Below, in pieces: positions 1 through 12,576 of a DNA stretch of 15,963 nt. Position numbers and translations under genes: made by a program. The notes beneath the pieces are model-generated. The model made no database searches. It had not been told where the DNA came from and saw only the letters and a program-made list of their open reading frames with translations. Within the stretch, counting starts at the first letter, position 1. Each line of letters begins with the position of its first letter. This DNA is from Anaerotignum sp. (lineage in GTDB: Bacteria > Bacillota > Clostridia > Lachnospirales > Anaerotignaceae). Location: the NCBI GenBank assembly GCA_017560955.1, contig JAFZDV010000032.1:1-15963 (forward strand), read 5' to 3'.

Positions 1-990
1 AACAATCAGCAGATGAACGAATTCCTTTCTCATCTGCAGAAAGACTATCTGATCTACGCACCCAAACGCTTTGTCGGCGGCGGTGCCTTCTCCGATACGG
101 ACTGTATCCGTTACGGTGAAATCAAAAACATCGAAGAAATCGAACATATTGAAAAATCTCAGTATTCCTTCAAAGAAGTGCTGACCCCCATCTCTCAGAC
201 ACTGTTCTTCTTCACAGAAGACGTGGTAAAAGAAGCAGACGCTCCCAAAAAAGGCGCTGTGATCTTCCTGAGAAGCTGCGATCTGCACGCCCTGAAAAGA
301 CTGGACGATATGTACCTGCACAATGGTCCTGCAGACTTCTACTACAACAGACTGCGCCAGAACCTGAAGGTGATCCTGATGGGCTGCAGCCAGTCCTGCG
401 AAAACGGCTTCTGTGTAAGCATGGGTACAAACAAAACTGACAACTACGACCTGAGCATCGACTGGACAGCCGATGGTCTGCTGCTGGACTGCAAGGATGA
501 ATGGTTCCAGAGCCTGCTTTATGAAAACGAAACAGCAGATATTTCTCCAGCTTACGTGACAGAAAACAAAGTCAAAGTGAGCATCCCTGAAAATCTGACC
601 GCAGACGTTGCAAAAAGCGAAATCTGGAAAGAATATGATGGCAGATGTATCAACTGCGGCAGATGTAATTTTGTTTGCCCTACTTGTACCTGCTTCACTA
701 TGCAGGATTTCTTCTACAGTGAAAACGGCAAAGTTGGTGAACGCCGCAGAGTATGGGCTTCCTGTATGGTTGATGGCTATACAGATGTAGCAGGCGGCGG
801 CAGCTACCGCAAGAAAAACGGTGAACGTATGCGTTTCAAAGTGCTGCATAAAGTACTGGACTACAAACAGCGCAACGGCTACCACATGTGCGTAGGCTGT
901 GGCAGATGCGATGATGTCTGTCCCGAATATATTTCCTTCTCCCACTGTGTAAATAAACTGGAAGATGCCATGAAGGAGGTGCAGAACTGA
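1..990 (+). CDS. asrA: Anaerobic sulfite reductase subunit A (4Fe-4S electron-transfer subunit), 5' partial
   Basis: AsrA is the iron-sulfur subunit of the three-subunit cytoplasmic sulfite reductase. It passes electrons towards AsrC for reduction of sulfite to sulfide. Counting from the ATG at 13, two ferredoxin-type clusters are visible: C212-x2-C215-x2-C218-x3-C222 and C293-x2-C296-x2-C299-x3-C303. The text SCDLHALKRLDDMYLHNG (88-105) and FCVSMGTNKTD (133-143) is typical of the AsrA family. The frame is open from base 1 through the ATG at 13, no ribosome binding site precedes that ATG, and known AsrA proteins have roughly 10 more N-terminal residues. The true start is therefore probably left of the window. 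The stop (TGA, 988-990) overlaps the asrB ATG by one base, so asrA and asrB are translationally coupled. The promoter is not visible. Confidence 0.95.
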   Translation, partial: NNQQMNEFLSHLQKDYLIYAPKRFVGGGAFSDTDCIRYGEIKNIEEIEHIEKSQYSFKEVLTPISQTLFFFTEDVVKEADAPKKGAVIFLRSCDLHALKRLDDMYLHNGPADFYYNRLRQNLKVILMGCSQSCENGFCVSMGTNKTDNYDLSIDWTADGLLLDCKDEWFQSLLYENETADISPAYVTENKVKVSIPENLTADVAKSEIWKEYDGRCINCGRCNFVCPTCTCFTMQDFFYSENGKVGERRRVWASCMVDGYTDVAGGGSYRKKNGERMRFKVLHKVLDYKQRNGYHMCVGCGRCDDVCPEYISFSHCVNKLEDAMKEVQN

Positions 991-1784
991 TGGTAAGAAA
1001 TGATTATATTCCCTTCTCTTCCGAAATTCTGGAAGTAATCAAACATACAGAAATCGAATACACTTTCCGTATGGCTTTCACAGGTGATGTGAAACCCGGT
1101 CAGTTCTTCGAAGTTTCCATCCCCAAATACGGCGAAGCACCTATTTCCGTCAGCGGTATCGGAGAAGGTTTTGTAGACCTGACAGTTCGCCGCGTTGGTA
1201 AAGTAACAAACGAAGTATTTACTAACTATGTTGGTGATACACTGTTCATGAGAGGCCCCTACGGCAATGGCTTCGATGTAAACGATTACAAAGGTCATGA
1301 TCTGATCATTATGGCCGGCGGTACAGGTCTGTCCCCCGTTCGTGGTGTAGTGGATCACTTTGCAAATCATACAGAAGACCGTAAAGACATGACTCTGATC
1401 TGCGGTTTCAAAAGTCCTTCCGATGTTCTGTTCCGTGCAGACCTGAAAAGATGGGAAGAAACACTGAATGTAGTCATGACTGTAGATAACAATCAGGGCA
1501 ACGAAGAATACAAACAGGGACTGGTAACAGAATATATCCCCAAACTGAATCTGAAAGACCCCAAAGATGCTGTTGCTGTTGTGGTAGGTCCACCTGCTAT
1601 GATGCGCTTTTCCGTACAGGGTCTGCTGTCCATCGGCATTCCCGAAGAAAATATCTGGATTTCTCAGGAAAGAAAGATGTGCTGCGGTCTTGGCAAATGC
1701 GGTCACTGTAAAGTGAATGATACATATATCTGTCTGGATGGTCCCGTATTCAACTACACTAAAGGCAAAACACTGATCGACTAA
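990..1784 (+). CDS. asrB: Anaerobic sulfite reductase subunit B (FAD/NAD-binding, 2Fe-2S)
   Basis: AsrB is the flavin oxidoreductase subunit that takes electrons from NAD(P)H and feeds them to the Asr complex. It belongs to the ferredoxin-NADP reductase/dihydroorotate dehydrogenase electron-transfer family. Visible parts are an N-terminal flavin-binding barrel with APISVSG (50-56), GPYGNGF (89-95), the nucleotide-binding loop AGGTGLSPVRG (109-119) and VGPPAMM (199-205). A C-terminal 2Fe-2S motif C232-x4-C237-x2-C240-x7-C248 follows. The length of 264 aa fits the family. The ATG at 990 shares one base with the asrA stop and has AAGGAGGT at 973-980. asrC follows after 12 bases, so this is the middle gene of an operon. 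Confidence 0.96.
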   Translation: MVRNDYIPFSSEILEVIKHTEIEYTFRMAFTGDVKPGQFFEVSIPKYGEAPISVSGIGEGFVDLTVRRVGKVTNEVFTNYVGDTLFMRGPYGNGFDVNDYKGHDLIIMAGGTGLSPVRGVVDHFANHTEDRKDMTLICGFKSPSDVLFRADLKRWEETLNVVMTVDNNQGNEEYKQGLVTEYIPKLNLKDPKDAVAVVVGPPAMMRFSVQGLLSIGIPEENIWISQERKMCCGLGKCGHCKVNDTYICLDGPVFNYTKGKTLID

Positions 1785-1796
1785 GGAGGTGACACC

Positions 1797-2759
1797 ATGG
1801 ATACTAATACAAAGAAACTGAAAAAGAACGCATTCCGTGTAACAAAACACAGAGGTCTGACTGCTTCCCGTGTCCGTGTTCCCGGTGGTCATCTGGATGC
1901 AAAATATCTGCCCACCCTGCAGCACATCGCCGAAACATACGGCAATGGCACATTGCATATCACAGGCAGACAGGGTTTTGAAATCCCCGGCATCCCCTTT
2001 GAAAACATGGCAGAAGTGAATGCGGCACTGCAGTCCATCATCGAAGGTCTGGAAATCAACCAGGAAACTGTAAACGAAGGCTACCCTGCAGCCGGCACAA
2101 GAAATATCACAGCCTGCATCGGTAACAGAGTATGTCCTTTTGCCTGCTATGATACAACAGCCTTTGCCAAGAGAATCGAAAAAGCAGTATTCCCCAATGA
2201 CCTGCATTTCAAAATCGCTCTGACAGGCTGCCCCAATGACTGTAACAAAGTTCGCATGCACGACTTTGGCATCATGGGTATGACAGAGCCTCAGTTTGAC
2301 CCCAACCGTTGTGTCAGCTGTCAGGCCTGTGTGAAAACATGTAAGAAAAAATCCGTTGGTGCTCTGGAAATGGTAAACTACCGCCCTGTTCGCGATACAA
2401 AAAAATGTATCGGCTGCGGCGAATGTGTACTGGCCTGCCCCAACAGGGCCTGGGAACGCAGCCAGCAGAAATATTACAAACTGACACTGCTGGGCAGAAC
2501 AGGCAGAAAGAACCCTCGTCTGGGTCAGGACTTCATCAAGTGGGCAGATGAAGAATCTATCAAAAAAATTATTCTGAATACATACGATTATGTAAAAGAA
2601 TATATTGATCCCGAAGCTCCCGGTGGTAAGGAACATATCGGCTACATCGTTGACCGTACAGGTTTTGAAGAATACCTGAGATGGGCAATGAAAGGTGTGG
2701 TTCTGCCTGAAAAAGCAGAAGTTACAAGCCCTATGTACTGGAACGGTATCAAGTATTAA
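1797..2759 (+). CDS. asrC: Anaerobic sulfite reductase subunit C (siroheme catalytic subunit)
   Basis: AsrC is the catalytic siroheme-[4Fe-4S] subunit that carries out the six-electron reduction of sulfite to sulfide. The nitrite/sulfite reductase ferredoxin-like half domain spans about residues 10-80 (GTLHITGRQGFEIPGI at 51-66). The siroheme/4Fe-4S motif is C107-x5-C113 plus C145-x3-C149 (TGCPNDCNK). Two ferredoxin clusters follow: C172-x2-C175-x2-C178-x3-C182 and C204-x2-C207-x2-C210-x3-C214. At 320 aa it is a normal full-length family member. The ribosome binding site AAGGAGGT lies about 7 bases before the ATG. It is the last gene of asrABC and is followed by a bidirectional terminator at 2860-2892. 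Its siroheme requirement links it to the tetrapyrrole operon at 8557-12488. Confidence 0.96.
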   Translation: MDTNTKKLKKNAFRVTKHRGLTASRVRVPGGHLDAKYLPTLQHIAETYGNGTLHITGRQGFEIPGIPFENMAEVNAALQSIIEGLEINQETVNEGYPAAGTRNITACIGNRVCPFACYDTTAFAKRIEKAVFPNDLHFKIALTGCPNDCNKVRMHDFGIMGMTEPQFDPNRCVSCQACVKTCKKKSVGALEMVNYRPVRDTKKCIGCGECVLACPNRAWERSQQKYYKLTLLGRTGRKNPRLGQDFIKWADEESIKKIILNTYDYVKEYIDPEAPGGKEHIGYIVDRTGFEEYLRWAMKGVVLPEKAEVTSPMYWNGIKY

Positions 2760-2903: not shown

Positions 2904-3563
2904 TTATAAAATCTGGAACATGTTTTTATCAAAATCAATGATTCCTTCGTCACGCATTGTATTCAGTTCCCTTGTCAGAGCACTGCGGTCTGTACAGAGA
3001 AAATCCGCCATCTCCACCCTGCCCAGAGGGATCTCAATATACTTCGTCCCTTGCTTTTGCGCCTGCTGGGAAAGATAGGACATAATCTTTTCACGCAAAG
3101 ATTTTTTTGAAATGACTTCTACTTTTTCCATCAGCTGCTTATTCTTTCTGGCAATGATCGCTACCATATTTTCAATCAGGCGATGGTGAAACACACATGT
3201 CATAGAACAGGAGTGCATCACTCGGTCAAAGGGAAGGAACAACACTTCTGTATTAGAAGATGCATAGAAACTTACAACTGAAGACTGTTCTACACCGCAG
3301 GAAAATGTTTCGCCAAAGAGTTCTTCTTTCTTCATGCGAACCAGCATCGTTTTATTGCCCCAGATATCTTCCTTCACCATGTCAACACTGCCACTGATGA
3401 TAATACCGATCTGACGAACATCATCCTGCTCAAAAAAAATATATTCACCTTTCTTGAACTTTCTTACCTTTCCGCCCAGACAGTTCAGCATGGGTATCAT
3501 ATCCTTTTCCTTTACGCCAAAAAACAAAGGATAATCTAAAAGTTGTTTTACATATTTCTGCAT
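2904..3563 (-). CDS. Crp/Fnr-family transcriptional regulator (Crp1)
   Basis: 219-aa Crp/Fnr-type regulator, cytoplasmic and DNA-binding. The N-terminal cyclic-nucleotide-binding-like barrel covers about residues 10-115 (KFKKGEYIFFEQDD at 35-48, IISGSV at 55-60). A long dimer helix follows (about 125-150), then a winged helix-turn-helix (about 155-215) with recognition helix TDRSALTREL (191-200). It lacks the N-terminal Cys cluster of E. coli FNR. It does carry C28, C119, C123 and H126, all conserved in the paralogue at 7903-8562, which are possible metal, Fe-S or heme ligands (inference). The ATG has GGGAGGGG 5-6 bases upstream. Its promoter overlaps the palindrome at 3605-3620, suggesting autorepression. 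Similar operators before the HD gene, the ncRNA, the DUF819 gene and the hem operon make it the best candidate for their activator. The signal it senses is not deducible; sulfite or redox state is plausible given the asr neighbour. Confidence 0.93.
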   Translation of the reverse strand: MQKYVKQLLDYPLFFGVKEKDMIPMLNCLGGKVRKFKKGEYIFFEQDDVRQIGIIISGSVDMVKEDIWGNKTMLVRMKKEELFGETFSCGVEQSSVVSFYASSNTEVLFLPFDRVMHSCSMTCVFHHRLIENMVAIIARKNKQLMEKVEVISKKSLREKIMSYLSQQAQKQGTKYIEIPLGRVEMADFLCTDRSALTRELNTMRDEGIIDFDKNMFQIL

Positions 3564-3576
3564 AAATTCCCCTCCC

Positions 3577-3612
3577 TGAAAAAAGTATACTAAAATACAC
3601 TACGCGTTGCAA
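3577..3612 (-). promoter_or_regulatory. crp1 promoter, overlapped by its own operator
   Basis: On the - strand a TATACT -10 lies at 3589-3584. A TTGCAA -35-like hexamer lies 17 bases upstream at 3612-3607, inside the 3605-3620 palindrome, and the predicted start is about 3577. The operator centre is at about -35.5, a position where bound protein would block RNA polymerase. This suggests negative autoregulation. Confidence 0.6.
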
Positions 3613-3654
3613 CTGCAACGGACGAATTGAAGCAATCCCTTTATACTAAATACA
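3605..3654 (+). promoter_or_regulatory. Class II Crp-type promoter of the HD-domain gene
   Basis: The palindrome CGTTGCA-AC-TGCAACG (3605-3620, centre 3612.5) precedes a TATACT -10 at 3642-3647. The predicted start is 3654, so the operator centre is exactly -41.5. The -35 position (3619-3624, CGGACG) is not a consensus hexamer, as expected for an activator-dependent promoter. Confidence 0.75.
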
Positions 3655-3679
3655 TAAAGTAAAAAGGATGTGATAAATC

Positions 3680-4240
3680 ATGCTCAACAATGAACCAAAG
3701 TTGCTTAAGGATGTCCTTTTATATGAAAATGGTCATATCAGAAGAACAAAGCACATCCTGATGGTGTATTCTCTGGCAAAGTCTATCAGCAGTGAAGAAG
3801 GTTTATCTCTGGAGCAGCAGCAGATCGTGCAGAGTGCAGCGATCCTGCATGACATTGCTATCAAAAAATGCAAACGTAAATATAACGATGCTTCCATTGA
3901 AAAGCAACAATTGGAGTGCATTCCTGTTGCAAAGAAATTCCTCAAAGCATGCAACTATGTGCCTTCTTATACCGAAAAAATATTGAACCTCATCTACCAT
4001 CACCATGATTATGGTGCCTGCCAAGGTATTGAGCATCAGATTCTGATAGAGGCAGATTTAATCGTCAATTGTCTGGAACACAGAAATTATAGAGAAAAAG
4101 CTGCTGATGTTGCAGTTCATTTCCACACAAAGACCGGAAAGGAACTGTTGCATAAGTTAATGGAAAACAAAGAAATCCCATCTCTCAATACACTCCATGA
4201 TACCGTTCAGGAGACAGAAGACCTGCCCTCTATACATTAA
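3680..4240 (+). CDS. HD-domain metal-dependent phosphohydrolase-like protein
   Basis: 186-aa cytoplasmic protein of the HD superfamily, whose members hydrolyse phosphate esters such as nucleotides or signalling nucleotides with a bound metal. The metal-ligand set is visible: H25 (RRTKHILMVY), H57-D58 (AILHDIA), a histidine-rich YHHHDYG at 106-112, and D126 (EADLIVN). The substrate cannot be told from sequence. It is a small stand-alone HD protein without a RelA/SpoT synthetase or GGDEF partner. The start ATG has AAGGATG about 9 bases upstream, and the leader from the predicted start point is 26 bases. It is transcribed divergently from crp1 across a single shared operator, so it is a likely direct Crp1 target. 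No terminator follows immediately, and transcripts may read through to 4738. Confidence 0.85.
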   Translation: MLNNEPKLLKDVLLYENGHIRRTKHILMVYSLAKSISSEEGLSLEQQQIVQSAAILHDIAIKKCKRKYNDASIEKQQLECIPVAKKFLKACNYVPSYTEKILNLIYHHHDYGACQGIEHQILIEADLIVNCLEHRNYREKAADVAVHFHTKTGKELLHKLMENKEIPSLNTLHDTVQETEDLPSIH

Positions 4241-4267
4241 ACATATCATAGGTAATCATACAAAATG

Positions 4268-4317
4268 CGTTGCAGGCGCAACATATAAAAGCAGAATCTT
4301 GTTATATAATAAGGCTA
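4268..4317 (+). promoter_or_regulatory. Class II Crp-type promoter reading into a gene-free region
   Basis: The operator CGTTGCAGGCGCAACA (4268-4283, centre 4275.5) is followed by a perfect TATAAT at 4305-4310. The predicted start is 4317, so the operator is at -41.5. There is no consensus -35. It reads into the putative ncRNA at 4317-4740. Confidence 0.72.
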
Positions 4318-4330
4318 TAATCAATAAATC

Positions 4331-4357
4331 ACATATCTGCTGGTGGGTAGTATATGT
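4331..4357 (+). repeat. Hairpin repeat copy 1
   Basis: A 27-base element beginning ACATATCTGC and ending TATATGT, with self-complementary ends (ACATA/TATGT, then CTGC/GTAG with one G-T pair). It matches the element at 4500-4526 at 23 of 27 positions. Confidence 0.6.
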
Positions 4358-4358
4358 A

Positions 4359-4457
4359 AGCAGATCAGACACTCCAATGTTTCACAAACAGTTTTTAATC
4401 TTCCTTAAAATAAGTCGGAAACACAATCCTTCTCCAAATACAATCGTCTGATCTGCT
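4359..4457 (+). repeat. 12-bp inverted repeat enclosing 75 bases
   Basis: AGCAGATCAGAC at 4359-4370 is exactly complementary to GTCTGATCTGCT at 4446-4457. In an RNA it would close a 75-base domain. The arm starting at 4359 could also pair with ATCTGCT at 4335 or 4504. Confidence 0.6.
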
Positions 4458-4462
4458 GTTTT

Positions 4463-4669
4463 CTAACATCCGCAGCACTTATAGCAGCAATCCATATAAA
4501 CATATCTGCTGTTTCGCAGTATATGTCCACGGGCCAGAATATCCAGATCATTCCAAGACAGTATTGTTCTTGTTTCCTCTAGCTTCTCAAGAATACGCTT
4601 AACATATTTTGATTTTTTGGCCCGTTGCTTCTTACTATCACGCAATTTACAAAAGTATTTAGCTTCCAT
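4463..4669 (-). CDS. Doubtful small ORF, basic with a Cys-rich tail
   Basis: A 68-codon open frame antisense to the putative ncRNA. The product would be lysine/arginine-rich in its first half (DSKKQRAKKSKYVKRILEKL at about 11-30) and end in YMDCCYKCCGC, with five cysteines in the last nine residues. I do not recognise it. No ribosome binding site stands at the usual distance before the ATG: GGATGGAG lies about 20 bases upstream. The frame also runs through the hairpin repeat at 4500-4526. It may be a chance frame, a decayed gene or an unusual small peptide. It is listed because the Cys-rich end is striking. Confidence 0.15.
   Translation of the reverse strand: MEAKYFCKLRDSKKQRAKKSKYVKRILEKLEETRTILSWNDLDILARGHILRNSRYVYMDCCYKCCGC
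4500..4526 (+). repeat. Hairpin repeat copy 2
   Basis: Near-copy of 4331-4357 with ends ACATA/TATGT and a perfect CTGC/GCAG inner stem. The first copy has GTAG at that place, so pairing is kept through a G-T wobble. The differences fall mainly in the loop, as expected for a selected RNA hairpin. Confidence 0.6.
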
Positions 4670-4698
4670 TTCGAAATAATGAAATCCATCTCCATCCT

Positions 4699-4740
4699 AA
4701 CAAAGAAACAGACCTTCCACGAGGTCTGTTTCTTTGTTAT
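4699..4740 (+). terminator. Strong intrinsic terminator before the DUF819 gene
   Basis: Perfect 16-bp inverted repeat (4699-4714 and 4723-4738, 8-base loop). The GC core is CAGACC/GGTCTG, with an A-rich left arm and a T-rich right arm. It would end the putative ncRNA and any readthrough from the HD gene, isolating the DUF819 promoter. Confidence 0.85.
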
Positions 4741-4776
4741 ATACAGATACAAAACTTACAAAAACCACTATTTTTT

Positions 4777-4826
4777 CGTTGCAACCGCAACATCACCAAA
4801 ATCCTTCCTGTTATATGCTGAATGTA
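4777..4826 (+). promoter_or_regulatory. Class II Crp-type promoter of the DUF819 gene
   Basis: The operator CGTTGCAACCGCAACA (4777-4792, centre 4784.5) is followed by a TATGCT -10 at 4814-4819. The predicted start is 4826, again giving -41.5. The 31-base leader carries AAGGAGGG at 4843-4850. Confidence 0.7.
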
Positions 4827-4856
4827 ATAAAACGAACATTCTAAGGAGGGAAATTC

Positions 4857-6077
4857 ATGAATACATTTATTTCTTCTGACAACTCATGGGCACTGATGGC
4901 GATCACCTGCGGCTGGACCGCCTTTGCCATCTATGCAGAACAGACCTGGACATGGGCATCCAGACTTTCCAGCTGCATCATCGCCCTCTTAGGGGCACTA
5001 TTCCTGACTAACTTTGGCATTATTCCCACAAACTGCATCTTTTTCGATGACATTATCTGGGGCTATGTGGTTCCCATGGCCATTCCTATGCTGCTGCTCA
5101 CTTGTGATATCCAGAAAGTCGGCAGAGAATCCGGTCGGATACTGATTATATTTCTGATCGGCTCCATTGGCACAACAGTCGGCGTTTTACTGGGCTATGC
5201 TTTATTACATGACTACATCGAGCATCTTCCCGGTATTGCCGCCATGCTAACAGGCACTTATATCGGCGGCACCGTGAATCTTGTTGCCCTCTCTGATGCA
5301 TTTCAGATCCCCGGAGAATCCGTTTCGGCAGCCGTGGTAGCTGATAATTTGCTGATGACCCTTTATTTCTTTGTGTTGGTTATGATTCCCGGCATCCGAT
5401 TCTTTTACAGAAAATTCAAACATCCTCTGATCGACGAAATCAACACCACAGGCACCACTGATACTTCCGTAACGCAGGCTGCATCCTTCTGGGGCAAAAA
5501 GCCAATTTCTCTGAAAGATATCGCCATCAACATTGCCCTCAGTGTGATGATCGTATGGGTTTCCACAGAAATCTCTAATCTGATTTCCGCAGCATTCCCA
5601 GCAAATCAGGATAAAGGCCTTCTGAACAATATGATCGGCGGACTGTTCGGCAATAAATATCTGATCCTTACTACCTTCACTATGATTATCGCCACAGTAT
5701 TTTCAAAGCCTCTGGAGAACCTTTCCGGTTCTCAGGAAATCGGCACTTATCTGATCCACCTGTTTTTCTTTGCGGTCGGTGCGCCTGCTTCCATCAGGGC
5801 GATCCTTCAGAATGCTCCTTTACTGCTGGTCTTCGCCGCTGTCATCATATTGGTGAATATGCTGTTTACTTTTACCTTTGGCAAACTACTGAAATTTGAT
5901 CTTGAGGAATGTATCCTGGCATCCAATGCGAATATCGGCGGCCCTACCACCGCAGCCGCCATGGCAATTTCCCAGGGCTGGACAAAACTGATCGGACCAA
6001 TCATGCTGATCGGCACCTTCGGCTATGTCCTCGGAACATATGCAGGTATGTTTATCGGCAACTTTTTAGGTGCATAA
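4857..6077 (+). CDS. DUF819 (YjcL-like) multi-spanning membrane protein
   Basis: 406-aa integral membrane protein of the DUF819 family (B. subtilis YjcL type), whose function I do not know to be established. Many hydrophobic segments run through the protein. Signature stretches are GTYIGGTVNLVALSDAF (133-149), GSQEIGTYLIHLFFFAVGAP (291-310) and SNANIGGPTTAAAMA (356-370). The two IGG-containing motifs in the two halves suggest an internally repeated transporter-like fold (inference). The hydrophilic stretch at about 186-218 is probably a central loop. The start ATG has AAGGAGGG 6 bases upstream. It has its own class II Crp-type promoter, which places it with the siroheme operon and near asrABC. 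Transport of a sulfur oxyanion or organosulfonate would fit but is speculation. Confidence 0.88.
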   Translation: MNTFISSDNSWALMAITCGWTAFAIYAEQTWTWASRLSSCIIALLGALFLTNFGIIPTNCIFFDDIIWGYVVPMAIPMLLLTCDIQKVGRESGRILIIFLIGSIGTTVGVLLGYALLHDYIEHLPGIAAMLTGTYIGGTVNLVALSDAFQIPGESVSAAVVADNLLMTLYFFVLVMIPGIRFFYRKFKHPLIDEINTTGTTDTSVTQAASFWGKKPISLKDIAINIALSVMIVWVSTEISNLISAAFPANQDKGLLNNMIGGLFGNKYLILTTFTMIIATVFSKPLENLSGSQEIGTYLIHLFFFAVGAPASIRAILQNAPLLLVFAAVIILVNMLFTFTFGKLLKFDLEECILASNANIGGPTTAAAMAISQGWTKLIGPIMLIGTFGYVLGTYAGMFIGNFLGA

Positions 6078-6108
6078 CACACTTCATTCTACATATATAC
6101 AAAAAATA

Positions 6109-6145
6109 CGGCAGAGAGATTTCATTCTCTCTGCCGCTGTTTTTT
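6109..6145. terminator. Bidirectional terminator between the DUF819 gene and hcp
   Basis: Perfect 11-bp stem CGGCAGAGAGA (6109-6119)/(6126-6136) with a 6-base loop. It is followed by CTGTTTTTT on the + strand and preceded by an A run (6101-6106) that gives a T run on the - strand. It serves both convergent genes. Confidence 0.9.
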
Positions 6146-7745
6146 AGCTAAGCAATTTCTTCAAATCCTCTTCAGGTGTACTGATAGGAGCAATATTATA
6201 ATTCTCTGCAAGGAACTGCAATACATTAGGAGAAATAAATGCTGGCAAAGAGGGGCCGAGCAGAATATCTTTGATTCCCAGATGCAGCAATGTCAGTAAA
6301 ATACATACTGCTTTCTGTTCATACCAAGACAATACCATGGAAAGAGGCAGATCATTCACGCCGCACTGGAAGGCATCCGCAAGGGCAGATGCTACTTTAA
6401 TTGCGCTGTAGGCATCATTGCACTGTCCCATATCCATCATACGAGGAAGACCTCCAATTGTTCCCAGTTCCAGATCATTGAAACGATATTTACCACAGGC
6501 AAGTGTCAGGATCACACTGTCAGCAGGTGTCTGTTTTACAAACTCAGTATAGTAATTACGGCCTGCTTTTGCACCATCACAGCCACCTACAAGGAAAAAG
6601 TGTTTGATAGCACCGGATTTTACTGCTTCAATAACTGTATCCGCAACAGAAAGAACTGCATTGTGCGCAAAGCCTGTCATTACCTTATTCCCGCCATTGA
6701 TACCTGTAAATTCCTTATCTTCAGAATAGCCGCCAAGAGCCAGTGCTTTTTCAATCACAGGGGCAAAGTTCTTTTCTTCGCCAATGTGTACGATTTCAGG
6801 ATAGGATACTACTTCTGTTGTAAACACACGATCTGCATAACTTTCTTTTGGAGGCATCAGGCAGTTTGTCGTAAACAGAATGGGTGCAGGAATATCTGCA
6901 AACTCTTTTTGCTGATTCTGCCATGCAGTACCGAAGTTCCCTTTCAGATGTGCATATTTTTTCAGTTCAGGATACGCATGTGCAGGGAGCATCTCTCCAT
7001 GAGTATAAATATTGATCCCTTTGCCTTCTGTTTGTTCCAGAAGCTGTTTTAAGTCATACAGGTCATGGCCTGTAATAACAATGAACGGACCTTTTTCTAC
7101 TGTCAGACTTACTTCTGTAGGCACAGGATTTCCATAGGTTTCTGTATTCGCCTGATCCAGCAGAGCCATACATTTGAGGTTGACTGCACCTACCTCCATT
7201 ACAATTGGCAGCAGTTCTTCCATTCCCCAGTCCTTCATACCAATTGCAAAAAGGGCTTTGTAGAAGAATGCATTCACTTCAGGATCACGATAACCCAGAA
7301 CTTCTGCGTGGTAAGCATACGCCGCCATACCACGAATCCCAAACAGAATGAGAGATTTCAAAGAACGAATATCCTCATCTGCGTCCCACAGATCATTCAT
7401 ATCATAATCGTCATTTCTGCCGCAGGGGGATTCACATTCTGTGCATCTGGGAACAAGGCGCTCTTTCTCTTCTTCGATCTTATCAATAAGGATATCCAAT
7501 GTTTCATTGTTAAAGTTCACATTAGTAATTGCAGTAAACAAGCCTTCCACTACCAGTCTGTCAGTTGCTTCCGTCACAAGGTGTTCATTGCCTTCCGTCG
7601 CTCTTGCCAGACCAATCAGCGCACCTGTCAGTTTATCCTGCAATACTGCTGTATCAGCTTTCTTGCCACATACACCAGCACAGCCTGTGCAGGCAGAACA
7701 GCCTGCTGTCTGTTCACACTGAAAACAAAACATATTTCTTTCCAT
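6144..7745 (-). CDS. hcp: Hydroxylamine reductase / hybrid-cluster protein
   Basis: Hcp is a cytoplasmic Fe-S protein that reduces hydroxylamine to ammonia in vitro and is linked in vivo to nitric oxide/nitrosative stress. The N-terminal cluster Cys are at C7-x2-C10 followed by C16, C19, C22 and C26, richer in cysteine than the minimal motif. All seven expected hybrid-cluster ligands can be placed by motif: H227 (TGHDL), E251 (HGEML), C295 (TNCLMPP), C389 (GGCDGAK), C417 (LACGKY), C442 (GQCND) and E476 (WYEQK). The length of 533 aa is normal. The ATG has GGAGGA about 7 bases upstream. It is divergent from crp2 and shares the operator at 7873-7888, located at -41.5 of its predicted start point (7839). 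This implies activation by Crp2, much like HcpR-hcp pairs in other anaerobes. Confidence 0.97.
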   Translation of the reverse strand: MERNMFCFQCEQTAGCSACTGCAGVCGKKADTAVLQDKLTGALIGLARATEGNEHLVTEATDRLVVEGLFTAITNVNFNNETLDILIDKIEEEKERLVPRCTECESPCGRNDDYDMNDLWDADEDIRSLKSLILFGIRGMAAYAYHAEVLGYRDPEVNAFFYKALFAIGMKDWGMEELLPIVMEVGAVNLKCMALLDQANTETYGNPVPTEVSLTVEKGPFIVITGHDLYDLKQLLEQTEGKGINIYTHGEMLPAHAYPELKKYAHLKGNFGTAWQNQQKEFADIPAPILFTTNCLMPPKESYADRVFTTEVVSYPEIVHIGEEKNFAPVIEKALALGGYSEDKEFTGINGGNKVMTGFAHNAVLSVADTVIEAVKSGAIKHFFLVGGCDGAKAGRNYYTEFVKQTPADSVILTLACGKYRFNDLELGTIGGLPRMMDMGQCNDAYSAIKVASALADAFQCGVNDLPLSMVLSWYEQKAVCILLTLLHLGIKDILLGPSLPAFISPNVLQFLAENYNIAPISTPEEDLKKLLS

Positions 7746-7779
7746 TTGTTGTTCCTCCGTTCATCTATTTTTTTGCTAG

Positions 7780-7810
7780 CCAGATAAATCTTATTTTTTA
7801 TTTATCCTGG
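7780..7810 (-). other. Hairpin in the hcp mRNA leader
   Basis: Inverted repeat CCAGATAAAT (7780-7789) against ATTTATCCTGG (7800-7810), with one bulged base, inside the roughly 94-base 5' leader of hcp. It is weak and AT-rich. Its role is unknown; it might affect mRNA stability. Confidence 0.3.
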
Positions 7811-7829
7811 TTATGGGGTTTCTCATTTC

Positions 7830-7888
7830 TTGCTTTTACAGGCTTATTATAATATAATATAGAAAACAATACCGTTGTATTTACAACA
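7830..7888 (+). promoter_or_regulatory. crp2 promoter with downstream operator
   Basis: TTGCTT (7830-7835), a 17-base spacer and TATAAT (7853-7858) predict a start near 7865. The palindrome at 7873-7888 lies about +9 to +24, a roadblock position that suggests autorepression by Crp2. The + and - strand -10 elements overlap in the same TATAATATAAT run, so the two promoters also compete directly. Confidence 0.62.
7839..7888 (-). promoter_or_regulatory. Class II Crp-type promoter of hcp
   Basis: On the - strand a TATAAT lies at 7851-7846, predicting a start at 7839. The palindrome CGTTGTA-TT-TACAACA (7873-7888, centre 7880.5) is then at exactly -41.5. No -35 consensus is present (CGGTAT at 7874-7869). 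Confidence 0.72.
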
Positions 7889-7902
7889 GAATGGAGTGTT
7901 TT

Positions 7903-8562
7903 ATGAAAGAATATGTTTCAATTCTGAAAAAAACAAAGTTGTTTGCCGGTGTCGGTGAAGAAGAAATCTCCGCAATGCTTTCCTGCCTTTCCGCAAGAAT
8001 GCAGATTTATAAAAAAGGAGACTATGTATTAAGACAAGGCACACATTTAAGCGATATTACTATTTTAGTTGCAGGCGCTCTGCATATTCAAAAGGATGAT
8101 TACTGGGGCAACCGCAGTATCCTCGGACATATCGGAGTGGGTGAGATTTTTGGCGAAGCCTATGTTGCACCTGAAAGTGGTGTTCTGATCAATGATGTAG
8201 TTGCAATAGAAGACAGTGCCGTTATCTTTTTCGATGTAAAGAAAATCATTACAACCTGCCCATCCGCCTGTCAGTTTCACACAAGGGTAGTACAGAACAT
8301 GTTTTTTACAATCTCAGAAAAAAACAAAAAACTCGTGCAGAAGCTCGATCATATGTCCAAGCGTTCCACACGAGAAAAATTACTTTCTTATTTATCTGAA
8401 GAAGCACAGAAACAAAACAGTTCTACCTTTACCATCCCCTTTAATCGTCAGCAGCTTGCAGATTTTCTTTCTATTGATCGAAGTGCCATGTCCAATGAAT
8501 TGAGTAAGATGCGTAAAGAAGGTCTTCTTGATTTTGAAAAAAATTGTTTTCGATTGTTATAA
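7903..8562 (+). CDS. Crp/Fnr-family transcriptional regulator (Crp2, HcpR-like by context)
   Basis: 219-aa Crp/Fnr-type regulator, same length as and clearly paralogous to Crp1 (2904-3563). The barrel covers about 10-115 (IYKKGDYVLRQGTH at 35-48), then the dimer helix, then a winged helix-turn-helix with recognition helix IDRSAMSNEL (191-200). C28, C119, C123 and H126 (TCPSACQFH) match Crp1. The frame is open from an ATG at 7891. The ATG at 7903 is preferred because GGAG (7893-7896) sits 6 bases before it, and because MKEYV then aligns with MQKYV of Crp1. The 7891 ATG would touch the operator and has no ribosome binding site. Being divergent from hcp makes it the likely hcp activator. The 3' end overlaps the convergent hemB by 6 bases. 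Confidence 0.93.
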   Translation: MKEYVSILKKTKLFAGVGEEEISAMLSCLSARMQIYKKGDYVLRQGTHLSDITILVAGALHIQKDDYWGNRSILGHIGVGEIFGEAYVAPESGVLINDVVAIEDSAVIFFDVKKIITTCPSACQFHTRVVQNMFFTISEKNKKLVQKLDHMSKRSTREKLLSYLSEEAQKQNSSTFTIPFNRQQLADFLSIDRSAMSNELSKMRKEGLLDFEKNCFRLL

Positions 8563-9528
8563 AGATATTTCTTTCAGCCATGCAGCCACATCCAGCGCAT
8601 GATAGGTAATGATGATCGTTGCACCTGCTCTTTTCATAGCGATCATATTTTCCATCACGATGCGTTTCTCATCGATCCAGCCCATTTGCGCTGCTGCCTT
8701 TACCATGGCATATTCACCGCTGACATTATAAACTGCAAGAGGCACATCAAATCTTTGTGCAGCTGCCTCAACCACATCCAGATAAGCCAGCACAGGCTTC
8801 ACAATATACATATCTGCCCCTTCTTCCAGATCATCTTCGATTTCTCTCAAAGCTTCTTTTTTGTTGCAGGGATCCATCTGATAGGATCGTCTGTCACCAA
8901 ACTGAGGGGTGGAATGGGCTGCATCACGAAAAGGCCCATAATAACCAGACGCAAATTTTGCACTATATGCCATGATTGGCACATTTGTAAAACCTGCATC
9001 ATCCAGCCCCGCTCTGATTGCCCCCACACGGCCATCCATCATATCAGAGGGAGCAATGATATCTGCCCCTGCCTGTGCCAGTGTGACAGCCATATTTGAC
9101 AGCAAAGGCAGCGTTTCATCATTCAGAATATGGCAGCCATGTACCAGCCCACAATGACCATGGGAAGTATATTCACACAGACATACATCCGCAATGACCA
9201 GCATCTCAGGATATTTCTCTTTGATATATCGAATCGCTCTCTGGGTAATACCATCAGGATGATATGCCTGAGAACCCACTTCATCTTTTTCTGCAGGGAT
9301 ACCAAAAATCAGCACACCACTGATCCCACTGTCTGTTACTTTTCCCAGCACTTCATCCATACGGTCAATAGAATACTGATACACCCCAGGCATGGATGCT
9401 ACAGGATTTTTGATATTTTCCCCATCGATCACAAAAATGGGGTAAATCAATTCCTCTGCAGAAACTCTGGTTTCTCTGACCAGTTTTCGCATCGTTTCTG
9501 TTGTACGTAATCTTCTGAATCTTTTCAT
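8557..9528 (-). CDS. hemB: Porphobilinogen synthase (delta-aminolevulinic acid dehydratase)
   Basis: HemB condenses two 5-aminolevulinate molecules to porphobilinogen, in the cytoplasm. The two Schiff-base lysines are K191 (YSAKFASGYYGPFRDA) and K244 (MYIVKPVLAYLD). The zinc site is C116, C118, C126 (DVCLCEYTSHGHCG), so this is a zinc-type enzyme. The length of 323 aa is normal. Its ATG overlaps the cobA-hemD stop in an ATGA arrangement, and AGGAGG precedes it by 7-8 bases. It is the last gene of the operon. No terminator can be seen after its stop, which overlaps the end of crp2 by 6 bases, so hemB mRNA probably runs antisense into crp2. Confidence 0.97.
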   Translation of the reverse strand: MKRFRRLRTTETMRKLVRETRVSAEELIYPIFVIDGENIKNPVASMPGVYQYSIDRMDEVLGKVTDSGISGVLIFGIPAEKDEVGSQAYHPDGITQRAIRYIKEKYPEMLVIADVCLCEYTSHGHCGLVHGCHILNDETLPLLSNMAVTLAQAGADIIAPSDMMDGRVGAIRAGLDDAGFTNVPIMAYSAKFASGYYGPFRDAAHSTPQFGDRRSYQMDPCNKKEALREIEDDLEEGADMYIVKPVLAYLDVVEAAAQRFDVPLAVYNVSGEYAMVKAAAQMGWIDEKRIVMENMIAMKRAGATIIITYHALDVAAWLKEISL

Positions 9529-11018
9529 TGCTCTACCTCCTTTACGATCATTTCAACCACACCGTCTACATTGAATTTTTCTGCCACAAGCATATCTGCA
9601 TATCCATATTTCTGCAGCATTTTCTGTGTAGAATCACCGATGCAAACAATTTTCGTTTTCGCAGGAATCGCTCCACCATCTTCCAGAAAGCCTCTTACAC
9701 CAGAGCCACTGGCAAAGGTAATAAAGTCCATATCCTGTACTCCGGAAAGAGCATCTTTTCTCTTATCATCATCCACACGAATGTCATAAATTTTCACATC
9801 TGTATAATGCAGCTCTGCAGTATCCAGTTTTTCTGTCAGAACATCAGAACCCTGTTCCGCACGCAGGATCAGAATCTTTTCATTCTTATTCACCTTTTTA
9901 CAAAGCCCCTCGGCAAAACTTTCCACATTGTATTTTTCAGGCAGATAAGAAGCATACACGCCTCTCTTTTCCAAAGCAGCTGCTGTACCTGTGCCAATGA
10001 CTGCAAACTGTAACCCCACTAATTTACGGACATCCAGTTTCAGTTTTTTCAGATAATCAAAGAAACTCTCTACCCCATTGGGACTGGTAAGCACCACCCA
10101 GGAATATTCCCCTGCTTTCTTCAATGCTCTTTCTAAATTCATATTTTCTCTGTAAGGAGTGAGAACAGAGTAATCCATTTCTGTTACGGCTGCCCCCAGT
10201 TCTTCCAGTCGATCACGCAGTTTTCTGGTCACAGATTTCGTCCCTGTCACCCCAATTTTCTTGCCGTACAAAGGTCTAGGGATGGTCCTTGAAAAATCCA
10301 GTCCAGCCGTTTCCCCTACCACAATAACCGCAGGTGCTTTCAGTTCTGCTGCTCTTACCATTTCCGCCAGTTCTCCTAAATTGCCCCTAACTGTTCGCTG
10401 GTATGGTGTTGTCCCCTGAGAAATCACTGCGGCAGGTGTTCCAGGATCCTTTCCGTCTGCCAAAAGCCCCTGTGTGATTTCCTCTAAATGATGCAGCCCC
10501 ATCAGGAAGACCAGTGTGCCTTCCAGTTTTGCCAGTACATCCAGATTTTCTGTTACAGCCCCTTTTCCATTTTCTGCTGTATGCCCCGTGATCACATGGA
10601 AACTTCTTGCAGTCTTACGATGAGTGACCGGGATTCCTGCCGCCGCAGGTACTGCAATAGACGAGGTCACACCGCTGACTACTTCATAGGGAACATTTTC
10701 TGCCTGCAATGCAAGAATTTCTTCGCCACCTCTGCCAAATACAAAGGGATCTCCGCCCTTCAGGCGGACAATCATCTTCCCCTCTTTTGCCTTCTGCACC
10801 AGAAGGGCATTGGTTTCATTCTGGGGCAACGAATGTTTCCCATATCGTTTACCTGCAAAAATCAGTTCACAGCCTGCCTTTACTTCTTCCAGCAGTTTCG
10901 GCGCCGCCAGATCATCGTAAAGAACCACATCACACTTTCGAAGCAAGTTCAGTCCTTTCCATGTGATCAGTTCCGGATCGCCGCAGCCTGCCCCCACCAG
11001 ATATACTTTTCCTGTCAT
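9525..11018 (-). CDS. cobA-hemD: Uroporphyrinogen-III C-methyltransferase / uroporphyrinogen-III synthase fusion
   Basis: Two-domain protein of 497 aa. The SUMT domain (about 1-245) methylates uroporphyrinogen III twice with S-adenosylmethionine to give precorrin-2. Its marks are VGAGCGDPELITWKG (8-22), VRLKGGDPFVFGRGGEE (84-100) and TPAAVISQGTTPYQRT (194-209). The HemD domain (about 252-497) cyclises hydroxymethylbilane to uroporphyrinogen III and is, as usual, weakly conserved (VLTSPNGV stretch). This fusion is common in Clostridia. The frame is open for 25 more codons upstream, but the ATG at 11018 is chosen. It overlaps the hemC stop as ATGA, has AGGAGG 8-9 bases upstream, and begins MTGKVYLVGAG as expected. 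The fusion commits tetrapyrrole flux towards siroheme/cobamide. Confidence 0.95.
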   Translation of the reverse strand: MTGKVYLVGAGCGDPELITWKGLNLLRKCDVVLYDDLAAPKLLEEVKAGCELIFAGKRYGKHSLPQNETNALLVQKAKEGKMIVRLKGGDPFVFGRGGEEILALQAENVPYEVVSGVTSSIAVPAAAGIPVTHRKTARSFHVITGHTAENGKGAVTENLDVLAKLEGTLVFLMGLHHLEEITQGLLADGKDPGTPAAVISQGTTPYQRTVRGNLGELAEMVRAAELKAPAVIVVGETAGLDFSRTIPRPLYGKKIGVTGTKSVTRKLRDRLEELGAAVTEMDYSVLTPYRENMNLERALKKAGEYSWVVLTSPNGVESFFDYLKKLKLDVRKLVGLQFAVIGTGTAAALEKRGVYASYLPEKYNVESFAEGLCKKVNKNEKILILRAEQGSDVLTEKLDTAELHYTDVKIYDIRVDDDKRKDALSGVQDMDFITFASGSGVRGFLEDGGAIPAKTKIVCIGDSTQKMLQKYGYADMLVAEKFNVDGVVEMIVKEVEQ

Positions 11019-11872
11019 TCTTTCAGCCTCCTCGCCAGCTCCTCCGCCAGTTTCAAACGGTCCACTACAGGTGCAGTTCCTTCCGCACGGCAACTGCCAT
11101 ACATCACTCTCAGACGGATGTTATCTCCCTGCAATTCCGCAAAAGCTGCCGCAGGTTCGCTGCAGTCTGCATTCAAAAGCATCAGCACTTCCCTTTCTGC
11201 TTCAAAGACATAACGGGTTTCTTCATGGGTCATTTTTCCGATGAAGTCAGCCAGTTCCGGCCTACCTTCTGCCACTACGATGCCTTGACAGGCTGCAGGA
11301 AGAAACTCATCTGTAGAAAGCACACGGAAGGTATATCCGTCTTCTTCGGTGATACCCATTCTATCCAGACCAGCTTTTGCAAGGATGATAGCATCAAAAC
11401 ACCCATTCATCAGTTTCTTCAGTCGCGTATGGATATTCCCACGGATCAGTTTGCATTCCGCCCATGGAAAGACCTCTGCTGCACATTGCTGTCTGCGAAG
11501 ACTTCCTGTGCCAATAGTCTTACATTCTTCCGGCATTCTGCCCTTTGGCATAACCAGAACATCTCTGGGATCATCCCTTTTCAGCACACCAATGATTTCC
11601 AAACCTTCCGCAATAAATAATGGGAGATCCTTACCGCTATGGATGGCAATATCTATTTCATCACGCAAAATCATTTCTTCAAATTCCGATGCAAAAAGAC
11701 CTTTGCTGCCGATCTCCCAAAGGGGTCTGTCCAGAATTTTATCCCCTCTGGTCTGAAAAGGAATGATCTCTGTTTCCATATTTGGATGGGTCATTTTCAA
11801 TGTTTCAATCGCTATATCCGTTTGTCTGCGAGAAAGCTGACTTTTTCTTGTCCCGACTCTGATTCTTTCCAT
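11015..11872 (-). CDS. hemC: Hydroxymethylbilane synthase (porphobilinogen deaminase)
   Basis: HemC polymerises four porphobilinogens to hydroxymethylbilane on a covalently bound dipyrromethane cofactor. Visible are VGTRKSQLSRRQTD (6-19), the catalytic Asp region HSGKDLP with D82, the substrate-binding SLRRQQ (124-129) and RGNIHTRLKK (144-153), and the probable cofactor cysteine C237 (LNADCSEP). At 285 aa it is about 25 residues shorter than typical, mainly in the C-terminal domain. The cofactor-Cys surroundings differ from the usual GGC-x-P-x-G form. An open frame extends 26 codons further, but the ATG at 11872 is preferred: AAGGTGGAG lies 4 bases upstream, and the longer version would overlap the upstream gene by 68 bases. 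It follows the sirC-like gene after 10 bases. Confidence 0.94.
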   Translation of the reverse strand: MERIRVGTRKSQLSRRQTDIAIETLKMTHPNMETEIIPFQTRGDKILDRPLWEIGSKGLFASEFEEMILRDEIDIAIHSGKDLPLFIAEGLEIIGVLKRDDPRDVLVMPKGRMPEECKTIGTGSLRRQQCAAEVFPWAECKLIRGNIHTRLKKLMNGCFDAIILAKAGLDRMGITEEDGYTFRVLSTDEFLPAACQGIVVAEGRPELADFIGKMTHEETRYVFEAEREVLMLLNADCSEPAAAFAELQGDNIRLRVMYGSCRAEGTAPVVDRLKLAEELARRLKE

Positions 11873-11882
11873 TTTCTCCACC

Positions 11883-12488
11883 TTATCTTTCAAGCAATAT
11901 GCTGATTTCTTCTTCTCTGACTTCGCCATTATTTTCCATAGCATAATCAAATACTTTCCTGAAGGCTTTCTCCCTTTCTGCGATATCAGGGATTTCCGTT
12001 TTTATTTTCTGGCGAACAGAAGAAAGAACTTCTACCACACGATCAAAATAATCAGGCACAACTTCCTCGACTTTCTGACGAATATACTGAACGGCAACAG
12101 GACTTCCGCCACCACTGGAAAAACCTGCTACAAACTCACCTTTCTTTACCAATGCAGGAAAGAAGAACCCACACTTTTCTCTGTCATCCACAATATTGAC
12201 CAGAATGCCTTCTGCATTACAGATCTCTGATATCTGGCTGTTTACAGCTTCATCATCTGTTGCACCAATCACAAACATTTTGCCGACGATATCTGTAGGA
12301 TGGAATTTTCTACAGATACGATGGATACCTTCCATCTCCTGAATCTCTTTACAAAAGGCTGGAGAAATAACAATGATCTCTACATCAAAAGGCAATAGCT
12401 TTTCTATTTTTCTAAGAGCAACGATGCCGCCTCCAACTATCAGACAAGGCTTATTTGTGATATCGATAAAAAATGGAAAGTAACTCAT
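11883..12488 (-). CDS. Precorrin-2 dehydrogenase (SirC/Met8-like, CysG N-terminal domain)
   Basis: 201-aa NAD-dependent enzyme that oxidises precorrin-2 to sirohydrochlorin, the step before iron insertion in siroheme synthesis. The Rossmann motif is VGGGIVALRKIEKLL (18-32). The catalytic Asp region is VNIVDDREKCGFFFPA (97-112), and SSGGGSPVAVQYIR (124-137) matches the family S-x-G-G-x-S-P signature. The length fits SirC/Met8-like proteins. Whether it also acts as ferrochelatase, as yeast Met8p does, cannot be read from sequence; no separate chelatase is present here. It is the first gene of the operon. The ATG has GGGAGGAG 4-5 bases upstream, and a 39-base leader separates it from a class II Crp-type promoter. 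Confidence 0.93.
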   Translation of the reverse strand: MSYFPFFIDITNKPCLIVGGGIVALRKIEKLLPFDVEIIVISPAFCKEIQEMEGIHRICRKFHPTDIVGKMFVIGATDDEAVNSQISEICNAEGILVNIVDDREKCGFFFPALVKKGEFVAGFSSGGGSPVAVQYIRQKVEEVVPDYFDRVVEVLSSVRQKIKTEIPDIAEREKAFRKVFDYAMENNGEVREEEISILLER

Positions 12489-12526
12489 ATTTCTCCTCCC
12501 TTTTCCATACTGGATGTATTCCTTTA

Positions 12527-12576
12527 TGCAATCAGTATAAAAAAAGAGGAAAACAAAAAGCGTTGCAGTTGCAACG
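12527..12576 (-). promoter_or_regulatory. Class II Crp-type promoter of the siroheme/hem operon
   Basis: The operator at 12561-12576, read on the - strand, is CGTTGCAACTGCAACG, identical over 16 bases to the one between crp1 and the HD gene. A TATACT -10 lies at 12539-12534, giving a start at 12527 and an operator centre of exactly -41.5. No -35 consensus is present. Confidence 0.78.

Follow-up and report, generated by a model that had tools for sequence, protein, structure and literature searches.

In-phase palindromes next to asrABC in an Anaerotignum genome suggest a small, mostly local Crp/Fnr regulon for sulfite reduction

The anaerobic sulfite reductase AsrABC converts sulfite to sulfide and has been linked to gut competition in Salmonella (PMC12452934). 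For Clostridia, induction of asrABC by sulfite has been suggested, and our literature search, which was limited in coverage, turned up no Crp/Fnr regulator of asrABC in this class. The question of what may control these genes is raised by a 15,963-nucleotide contig of Anaerotignum sp. (JAFZDV010000032.1 of assembly GCA_017560955.1, C31 in our numbering; hereafter the window), which carries asrABC next to the genes of two Crp/Fnr regulators, Crp1 and Crp2, the hybrid cluster protein gene hcp and an operon for siroheme synthesis. A sequence-only reading of the window had described four palindromes as class II Crp/Fnr operators, each centred 41.5 bp from a predicted transcription start, which would join an HD-domain protein, a noncoding RNA, a DUF819 membrane protein and the siroheme operon into one unit activated by Crp1. 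The source is a 1.38-Mb genome in 267 contigs and is 67.7% complete; we compared it with other genomes of its family (58 in all) and order (392). Loci, genomes and contigs are given by our working numbers (L, G and C).

A pattern search of the window with CGTTGCA-N2-TGCAACG, allowing up to three mismatches, found all four palindromes and a fifth that the earlier reading had missed, in front of hcp (Table 1). The expected number of matches was 0.64 (standard deviation 0.82), and none of 200 shuffled sequences reached five. At operators 1–4, of which the first and fourth are identical over 16 bases as described, 22 nt separate the 14-mer GTTGC-N4-GCAAC from the −10 hexamer, and operator 5, with GTTGT half-sites (GTTGT-N4-ACAAC), has its TATAAT at the same distance. 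The palindrome centre lies 29.5 bp from the first base of the −10 at all five sites, which corresponds to position −41.5 if the start, here predicted, is 7 bases after the −10. Every other spacing from 5 to 59 is found at no more than one of the five. When the sites were placed at random in the intergenic DNA of the window, all five shared one spacing in 5 of 200,000 placements and at least four did so in 226 of 200,000; the background frequency of such a −10 is 1.1% across the window and 2.4% in its intergenic DNA. The phasing, which had been called very unlikely to arise by chance, is confirmed and is stronger than first stated. The best −35 match at the five promoters is only 1–3 of 6 bases (spacers of 16–18), and because these matches are poor, the promoters look activator-dependent, which suggests class II activation.

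Table 1. Palindromes and annotated features of the window
Feature	Position	Strand	Details
Operator 1 (CGTTGCAACTGCAACG)	3605..3620	+	−10 TATACT 3642-3647; in front of HD gene
Operator 2 (CGTTGCAGGCGCAACA)	4268..4283	+	−10 TATAAT 4305-4310; intergenic
Operator 3 (CGTTGCAACCGCAACA)	4777..4792	+	−10 TATGCT 4814-4819; in front of DUF819 gene
Operator 4 (identical to operator 1 over 16 bases)	12561..12576	-	−10 TATACT 12539-12534; in front of siroheme operon
Operator 5, variant (TGTTGTAAATACAACG on - strand)	7873..7888	-	−10 TATAAT 7851-7846; in front of hcp
asrA, anaerobic sulfite reductase subunit A	13..990	+	TIGR02910, 521 bits, cut-off 323
asrB	990..1784	+	TIGR02911, 438 bits
asrC, siroheme/Fe-S subunit	1797..2759	+	TIGR02912, 557 bits; NIR_SIR domains
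Crp1, Crp/Fnr regulator, helix DRSALTREL	2904..3563	-	Pfam cNMP_binding and HTH_Crp_2 above cut-off
HD-domain protein, divergent from crp1	3680..4240	+	PF01966
Possible short transcript from operator 2	4317..4740	+	Terminator-like hairpin ~4698-4739 at end
DUF819 membrane protein	4857..6077	+	PF05684
hcp, hybrid cluster protein	6144..7745	-	NF003658, 765 bits
Crp2, HcpR-like Crp/Fnr regulator, helix DRSAMSNEL (Asn at CRP 185)	7903..8562	+	
Siroheme operon: precorrin-2 dehydrogenase (cysG N-terminal type), hemC, cobA-hemD, hemB	8557..12488	-	

We wondered whether such sites also precede asr operons in relatives, as the sequence-only reading had proposed looking for a site upstream of asrA. asrA scored above the cut-off in 7 of the 58 family genomes and 56 of the 392 order genomes. 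Within the family it is present in 6/9 genomes with Crp1 vs 1/49 without (p = 1.4e-5), with the line for Crp1 presence (49% identity or more) drawn after the hits had been seen. The phased site is present in each of the five family genomes that have both Crp1 and asr, picked through the asrA hits alone, and none was seen at the more distant asr operon of G049, which has no Crp1. We then compared 58 asr operons: 51 from outside the family (three of them from one genome), that of G049, those of five further family genomes, and L016. The window's own operon is not among them, since its promoter is off the contig. For eight of the 58 the fetched region includes a Crp1-clade gene, and all eight have GTTGC-N4-GCAAC exactly 22 nt before the −10; of the 50 without such a gene, two have this palindrome (L259 at 22 nt and L242 at 23 nt). 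In G026 the Crp1 gene, approximately 10 kb from asr, was seen because the region was longer, and by equal regions the comparison reads 7/7 vs 3/51; for the operons from outside the family, the search for Crp1 covered at most about 7 kb. The site expected at asrA is thus present in relatives wherever a Crp1-clade gene was found alongside, and this distribution supports the earlier suggestions that Crp1 is the likely activator and that the palindromes are class II Crp/Fnr operators of a local regulon next to asrABC.

Nine of the 50 asr operons, all from other families (L222, L223, L225-L229, L240 and L249), carry GTGAT-N4-ATCAC at the same distance of 22, and one of the 50 has a GTAAC palindrome. 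At these GTGAT promoters a different Crp/Fnr protein may act in a like arrangement, although the regulators near them yield no clean residue code. A code linking Glu at position 181 to GTGAT at asr fits L249 (helix SSRETISR), but L245 and L246 have DRAAMSSE near GTGAT, and because of these two deviations we do not claim it. In four of the five family genomes (L075, L104, L106 and L108) the first gene of the asr operon encodes an FNT-type channel, assigned by PF01226 for L106 and by similarity for the other three. L016 (5334-7431) has a phased GTTGC site after asrC, in front of a small open reading frame (ORF), an FrdX-like ferredoxin gene and hcp, and its asr and hcp share the GTTGC operator type.

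Given that the window holds two related regulators that appear to have different half-sites, we examined which protein would read which operator. Homologues of Crp1 (E 1e-10 or better) are present in 55/58 family genomes, and we named the groups Crp1, Crp2 and Crp3; the Crp1 clade has 17 members with a tree support of 100/99. R193, S194 and R198 of Crp1 correspond to positions 180, 181 and 185 of CRP, numbered as in PMC1274295 and placed by the pattern of the recognition helix. We tabulated 77 distinct proteins against perfect palindromes with a phased −10 within 400 bp of the gene. Arg at CRP position 185, as in Crp1 and Crp3, goes with GTTGC at all 37 sites and with no other base, while proteins with another residue there (mainly Asn, Crp2) stand beside 12 GTTGT, two GTTGA and two GTTGC sites; the remaining regulators have no perfect phased palindrome within the searched 400 bp. 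The association of residue and base is strong (Fisher 5e-11), with the statistic ignoring shared ancestry. A scan for GTTGT-type sites at 19 loci around Crp homologues (L054-L072) yielded 11 phased GTTGT and two GTTGA sites, the phased GTTG palindrome being absent at the other six, and the phased GTTGT points at an FrdX-like or hcp gene in 11/11 loci that have it. Residue 185, Arg in Crp1 and Asn in Crp2, therefore probably separates the sites of the two regulators, as far as this table can tell, and since Arg goes with GTTGC and Asn or other residues mostly with GTTGT, we favour Crp1 as the candidate for operators 1–4 and Crp2 for the hcp site.

The explanation that we consider rather likely is a small, mostly local class II regulon for sulfite reduction activated by Crp1, with hcp served by Crp2. 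Crp1 would bind GTTGC-N4-GCAAC centred near −41.5 and make up for the poor −35, thereby activating asrABC, together with the FNT channel in several relatives, and the HD-domain protein. In this lineage its targets would also include the siroheme operon, the gene of the DUF819 membrane protein and possibly a short RNA. The neighbouring hcp promoter, with its GTTGT-N4-ACAAC at the shared phase, would probably be activated by the paralog Crp2. A Crp/Fnr protein coupling the reductase to an FNT channel, and in this genome to the supply of siroheme, is a concrete, testable candidate, and the pairing of Crp1 with GTTGC and Crp2 with GTTGT lends itself naturally to testing how Crp/Fnr paralogs stay off one another's operators. 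The earlier interpretation is thus right in outline and partly supported. What needs revision is the single activated unit: the HD operator recurs in relatives, but the siroheme and DUF819 operators were seen in the window only, and the hcp site fits the second regulator.

Several findings weigh against this explanation. The promoter of the window's own asrA lies beyond the end of the contig, and no phased perfect palindrome was seen at 32 of the 58 asr operons. Although a phased site lies between crp1 and the divergent HD gene not only in the window but also in L107, L231 and L232, among 20 HD loci a site stands in front of the gene only in the window and in G030, the source of L107. The siroheme operon has the site at 0/27 other loci with upstream DNA, of which up to about 1.5 kb was read, so that a farther promoter could be missed (one further locus had no upstream DNA). 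The DUF819 gene has it at 0/29 other loci, including the second copy in the same genome, in a comparison of 30 loci out of 35 places. One or two ancestral changes could explain the residue-base table, and in two exceptions (L095 and L103) a Crp2-type protein stands beside a GTTGC site, with a Crp1 gene also nearby in both. Crp3 shares Arg 185 and the GTTGC half-site with Crp1; because the half-site is the same, cross-talk of Crp3 is possible. Finally, operator 4 lies inside a longer hairpin and could be the terminator of the upstream DUF3268 gene, or could serve as both operator and terminator.

Some of these points bear on how the regulon is composed. The 27 siroheme loci include six from the same genus, at 59–68% identity, in genomes without a detected asrA or Crp1-clade gene, and since the site was seen at none of the 27 within the upstream DNA read, an ancestral siroheme operator was rejected; by the 0/29 count, DUF819 was likewise rejected as a core member. 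Because their sites were seen in the window only, the siroheme and DUF819 operators would be local additions. The core would thus seem to consist of asr and HD, to which this lineage added siroheme, DUF819 and the candidate RNA.

Other points bear on which protein acts. All five sites could answer to Crp2 as one nitrosative-stress regulon, with Crp1 in another role. Crp2 rather than Crp1 is the regulator that adjoins hcp in the window; Crp1 is itself HcpR-like in its gene company, its clade genes adjoining an FrdX-like ferredoxin gene (a label given from 4Fe-4S domains and gene position) in 6/6 loci (L017-L022), with hcp in L019; and L016 has GTTGC at both asr and FrdX-hcp. We regard this alternative as unlikely, as the Crp2-type proteins of the family stand mostly at GTTGT, whereas GTTGC at asr tracks Crp1-clade genes. 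Because of these FrdX-like neighbours, we place Crp1 in what appears to be an HcpR-like group. In L020-L022, judged by eye, some 10 nt separate the palindrome before the Crp1-clade gene itself from a −10-like hexamer, a placement that would suit repression.

We give a similarly small chance to the possibility that Crp3, or Crp1 together with Crp3, acts at the GTTGC sites and ties sulfite reduction to a superoxide or oxygen response. Arg 185 is found in 32/32 Crp3 proteins, adjacent GTTGC promoters precede, in several genera, genes for desulfoferrodoxin and a flavodiiron-type fusion, and the Crp3 copy of the source genome itself (G000:C111:4313-4942) has a phased site with one mismatch. On the other hand, Crp3 is widespread in the family, whereas the asr sites track the Crp1 clade, and by eye the centre of the Crp3 sites looks AT-rich and that of the Crp1 sites mixed. 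Crp3 probably serves an oxygen/superoxide regulon of its own, judging from its neighbours. At L127 (G000:C111, 4307-5580) and at loci among L078-L105, the crp3 gene stands back to back with a phased promoter of the GTTGC type (TATCAT), which in several genera precedes a desulfoferrodoxin gene and a fusion of the flavodiiron-rubredoxin-reductase type.

It is improbable that some of the palindromes are not operators at all, operator 4 being the DUF3268 terminator and operator 2 serving nothing. The terminator scan does list 12581-12556 (-), with 11 pairs followed by a T-rich tail, and in the transcript expected from operator 2 neither a gene was recognised nor a relative found; operators 2 and 4, however, each have a −10 at the shared spacing, and five out of five at one spacing is rare by chance. 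That the palindromes are repressor sites, for which the arrangement in L020-L022 could speak, is very improbable, because the window centres lie near −41.5 beside −35 elements as poor as would be expected for activation.

The extent of the proposed Crp1 regulon was assessed with a whole-genome scan of the kind that the sequence-only reading had called for. The palindrome alone, with up to three mismatches, has 84 matches in the genome vs 31 for the reversed pattern. When a TATNNT −10 was required, four perfect matches were found, every one in the window, and up to two mismatches on both strands gave 26 matches vs 14 in the control. Seven of these 26 fall in the window, leaving 19 outside it vs 14 in the control, which is no clear excess. 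On other contigs examined (C95 and C146) there are two perfect 14-mers, neither of which has a phased −10. The regulon would therefore be mostly local, which holds for what is assembled, as the genome is incomplete. In the family, GTTGC-N4-GCAAC followed by TATNNT within 15–28 nt is present in 51/58 genomes. Among the matches listed (150 rows), a spacing of 22 accounts for 40 rows, or 36 without the source genome, and a spacing of 17 for 31, every other spacing having 2–12. In 60 regions around the family-scan hits (L073-L132), 20/23 sites with spacing 17 also have a −10 at 22 or 23, and the peak at 17 therefore largely counts these promoters a second time. It should be noted that these regions were chosen around motif hits, mostly of lengths 37, 42 and 43, and are for this reason unsuitable as a test of the spacing.

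The element behind operator 2 had been called a noncoding RNA. No plus-strand gene was recognised from the predicted start at 4317 to the hairpin near 4700-4740, and the stretch folds better than shuffled sequences (z −6.67, or −4.76 without the terminator). An Rfam scan of the window gave no matches, a search of the remaining 57 genomes of the family for the stretch found nothing, and matches of only 22–39 nt were found in three other genomes of the 392 in the order. With no real relative in family or order, a conserved RNA finds no support here, and the earlier designation reduces to a structured intergenic stretch that may give rise to a transcript. A minus-strand ORF (4463-4669) overlaps it and encodes 68 amino acids with a cysteine-rich end (CCYKCCGC); no homologue was found, and it was rejected as a real gene.

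The signal to which Crp1 may respond was approached through its cysteines. FNR, an oxygen sensor with an Fe-S cluster, has an N-terminal cysteine cluster. In Crp1, Cys28 is the sole cysteine before Cys89, which does not match the FNR type, and the NCBIfam CRP model scores 20 bits against a cut-off of 266. Cysteines 28, 89, 119, 123 and 190 are invariant in 17/17 Crp1 proteins, and from these five the signal is perhaps thiol- or metal-based. In the HcpR of Porphyromonas gingivalis, Met68 matters for heme (PMC12750200), and we infer from a primer in that paper that chain 9day is this protein. Lys64 of Crp1 aligns with the ligand Met68, and Lys occupies this position in 16/17 Crp1 and 13/22 Crp2 proteins, which differs from a heme ligand of that kind.

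The HcpR-like company of Crp1 invites comparison with known systems. The HcpR2 regulon, described for Clostridia, Bacteroides and Thermotogales (Rodionov 2005, PMC1274295), resembles ours in having a Crp/Fnr regulator beside hcp, a 14-mer of the same layout (GTAACnnnnGTTAC) and, for C. thermocellum and C. difficile, Ser at CRP position 181 with motifs off the common one. It differs in that its common half-site is GTAAC rather than the GTTGC of operators 1–4 or the GTTGT of operator 5; the putative targets here include asrABC, siroheme synthesis and the HD protein, none of which is named for clostridia in the accessible part of that paper. In C. difficile, HcpR likewise acts on frdX-hcp, but among the genes changed in the mutant a putative site was given only there, and the main text, as far as accessible, lacks the terms 'asrA', 'asrABC' and 'sulfite' (PMC12915319). 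A Desulfovibrio HcpR was predicted to activate hcp-frdX and an operon similar to sulfite/nitrite reductases (206515-206516), from sites upstream of or overlapping the −35 (Rodionov 2004, PMC545781). Because of this prediction from 2004, the link of an HcpR-type regulator to a sulfite-reductase-like operon is not new in kind; that system, however, has another motif (TTGTGAnnnnnnTCACAA), belongs to another phylum, does not concern asrABC, and includes predicted repression of sat and apsAB (PMC545781). Transcriptional control of asrABC in a Firmicute was also proposed for Thermoanaerobacterium, where a Rex site was predicted, with a regulator family and a palindrome different from those of Crp1 (PMC5886521). 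FNT channels of the hydrosulfide (HSC) type have been linked to asrABC, with no regulator given in the accessible text (PMC5525234); the FNT genes in front of asrABC in L075, L104, L106 and L108 resemble them at the level of the FNT family. In Bacteroides thetaiotaomicron, the RNA SnoA is encoded near an HcpR regulator, as is the candidate here, but the gene order there is hcpR-snoA-hcp, and SnoA levels did not change when hcpR was deleted (preprint PMC13370916); the candidate in the window lacks a real relative in the 392 order genomes.

These comparisons raise the possibility, about evenly balanced in our judgement, that Crp1 founds a dedicated regulator of sulfite reduction, which could be called AsrR, derived from an HcpR-like regulator of nitrosative stress and kept apart from it by one change at position 185. 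The same even judgement covers its details jointly: Arg in place of Asn at 185 would read C instead of T at the inner base of the half-site; the phase at asr would have been kept throughout the order while the operator was swapped, being GTTGC in some lineages and GTGAT-N4-ATCAC in others; and siroheme synthesis and the possible RNA would have been recruited in this lineage.

As for the remaining genes, the cysG-N (TIGR01470) and cobA-hemD members of the siroheme operon were matched by protein-family models, and the other two are presumably hemC and hemB, names that we take from their sequences. The DUF819 gene is an extra paralog, the second copy in the genome (on C74) being 74% identical. 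Elsewhere in the family, GTTGC sites with a phased −10 precede genes for a SufC-like ABC ATPase (L109, L118 and L124; L118 scores below the SufC cut-off, and L109 and L124 were judged by eye), a thioredoxin (L110) and a CcdA-like protein (L084).

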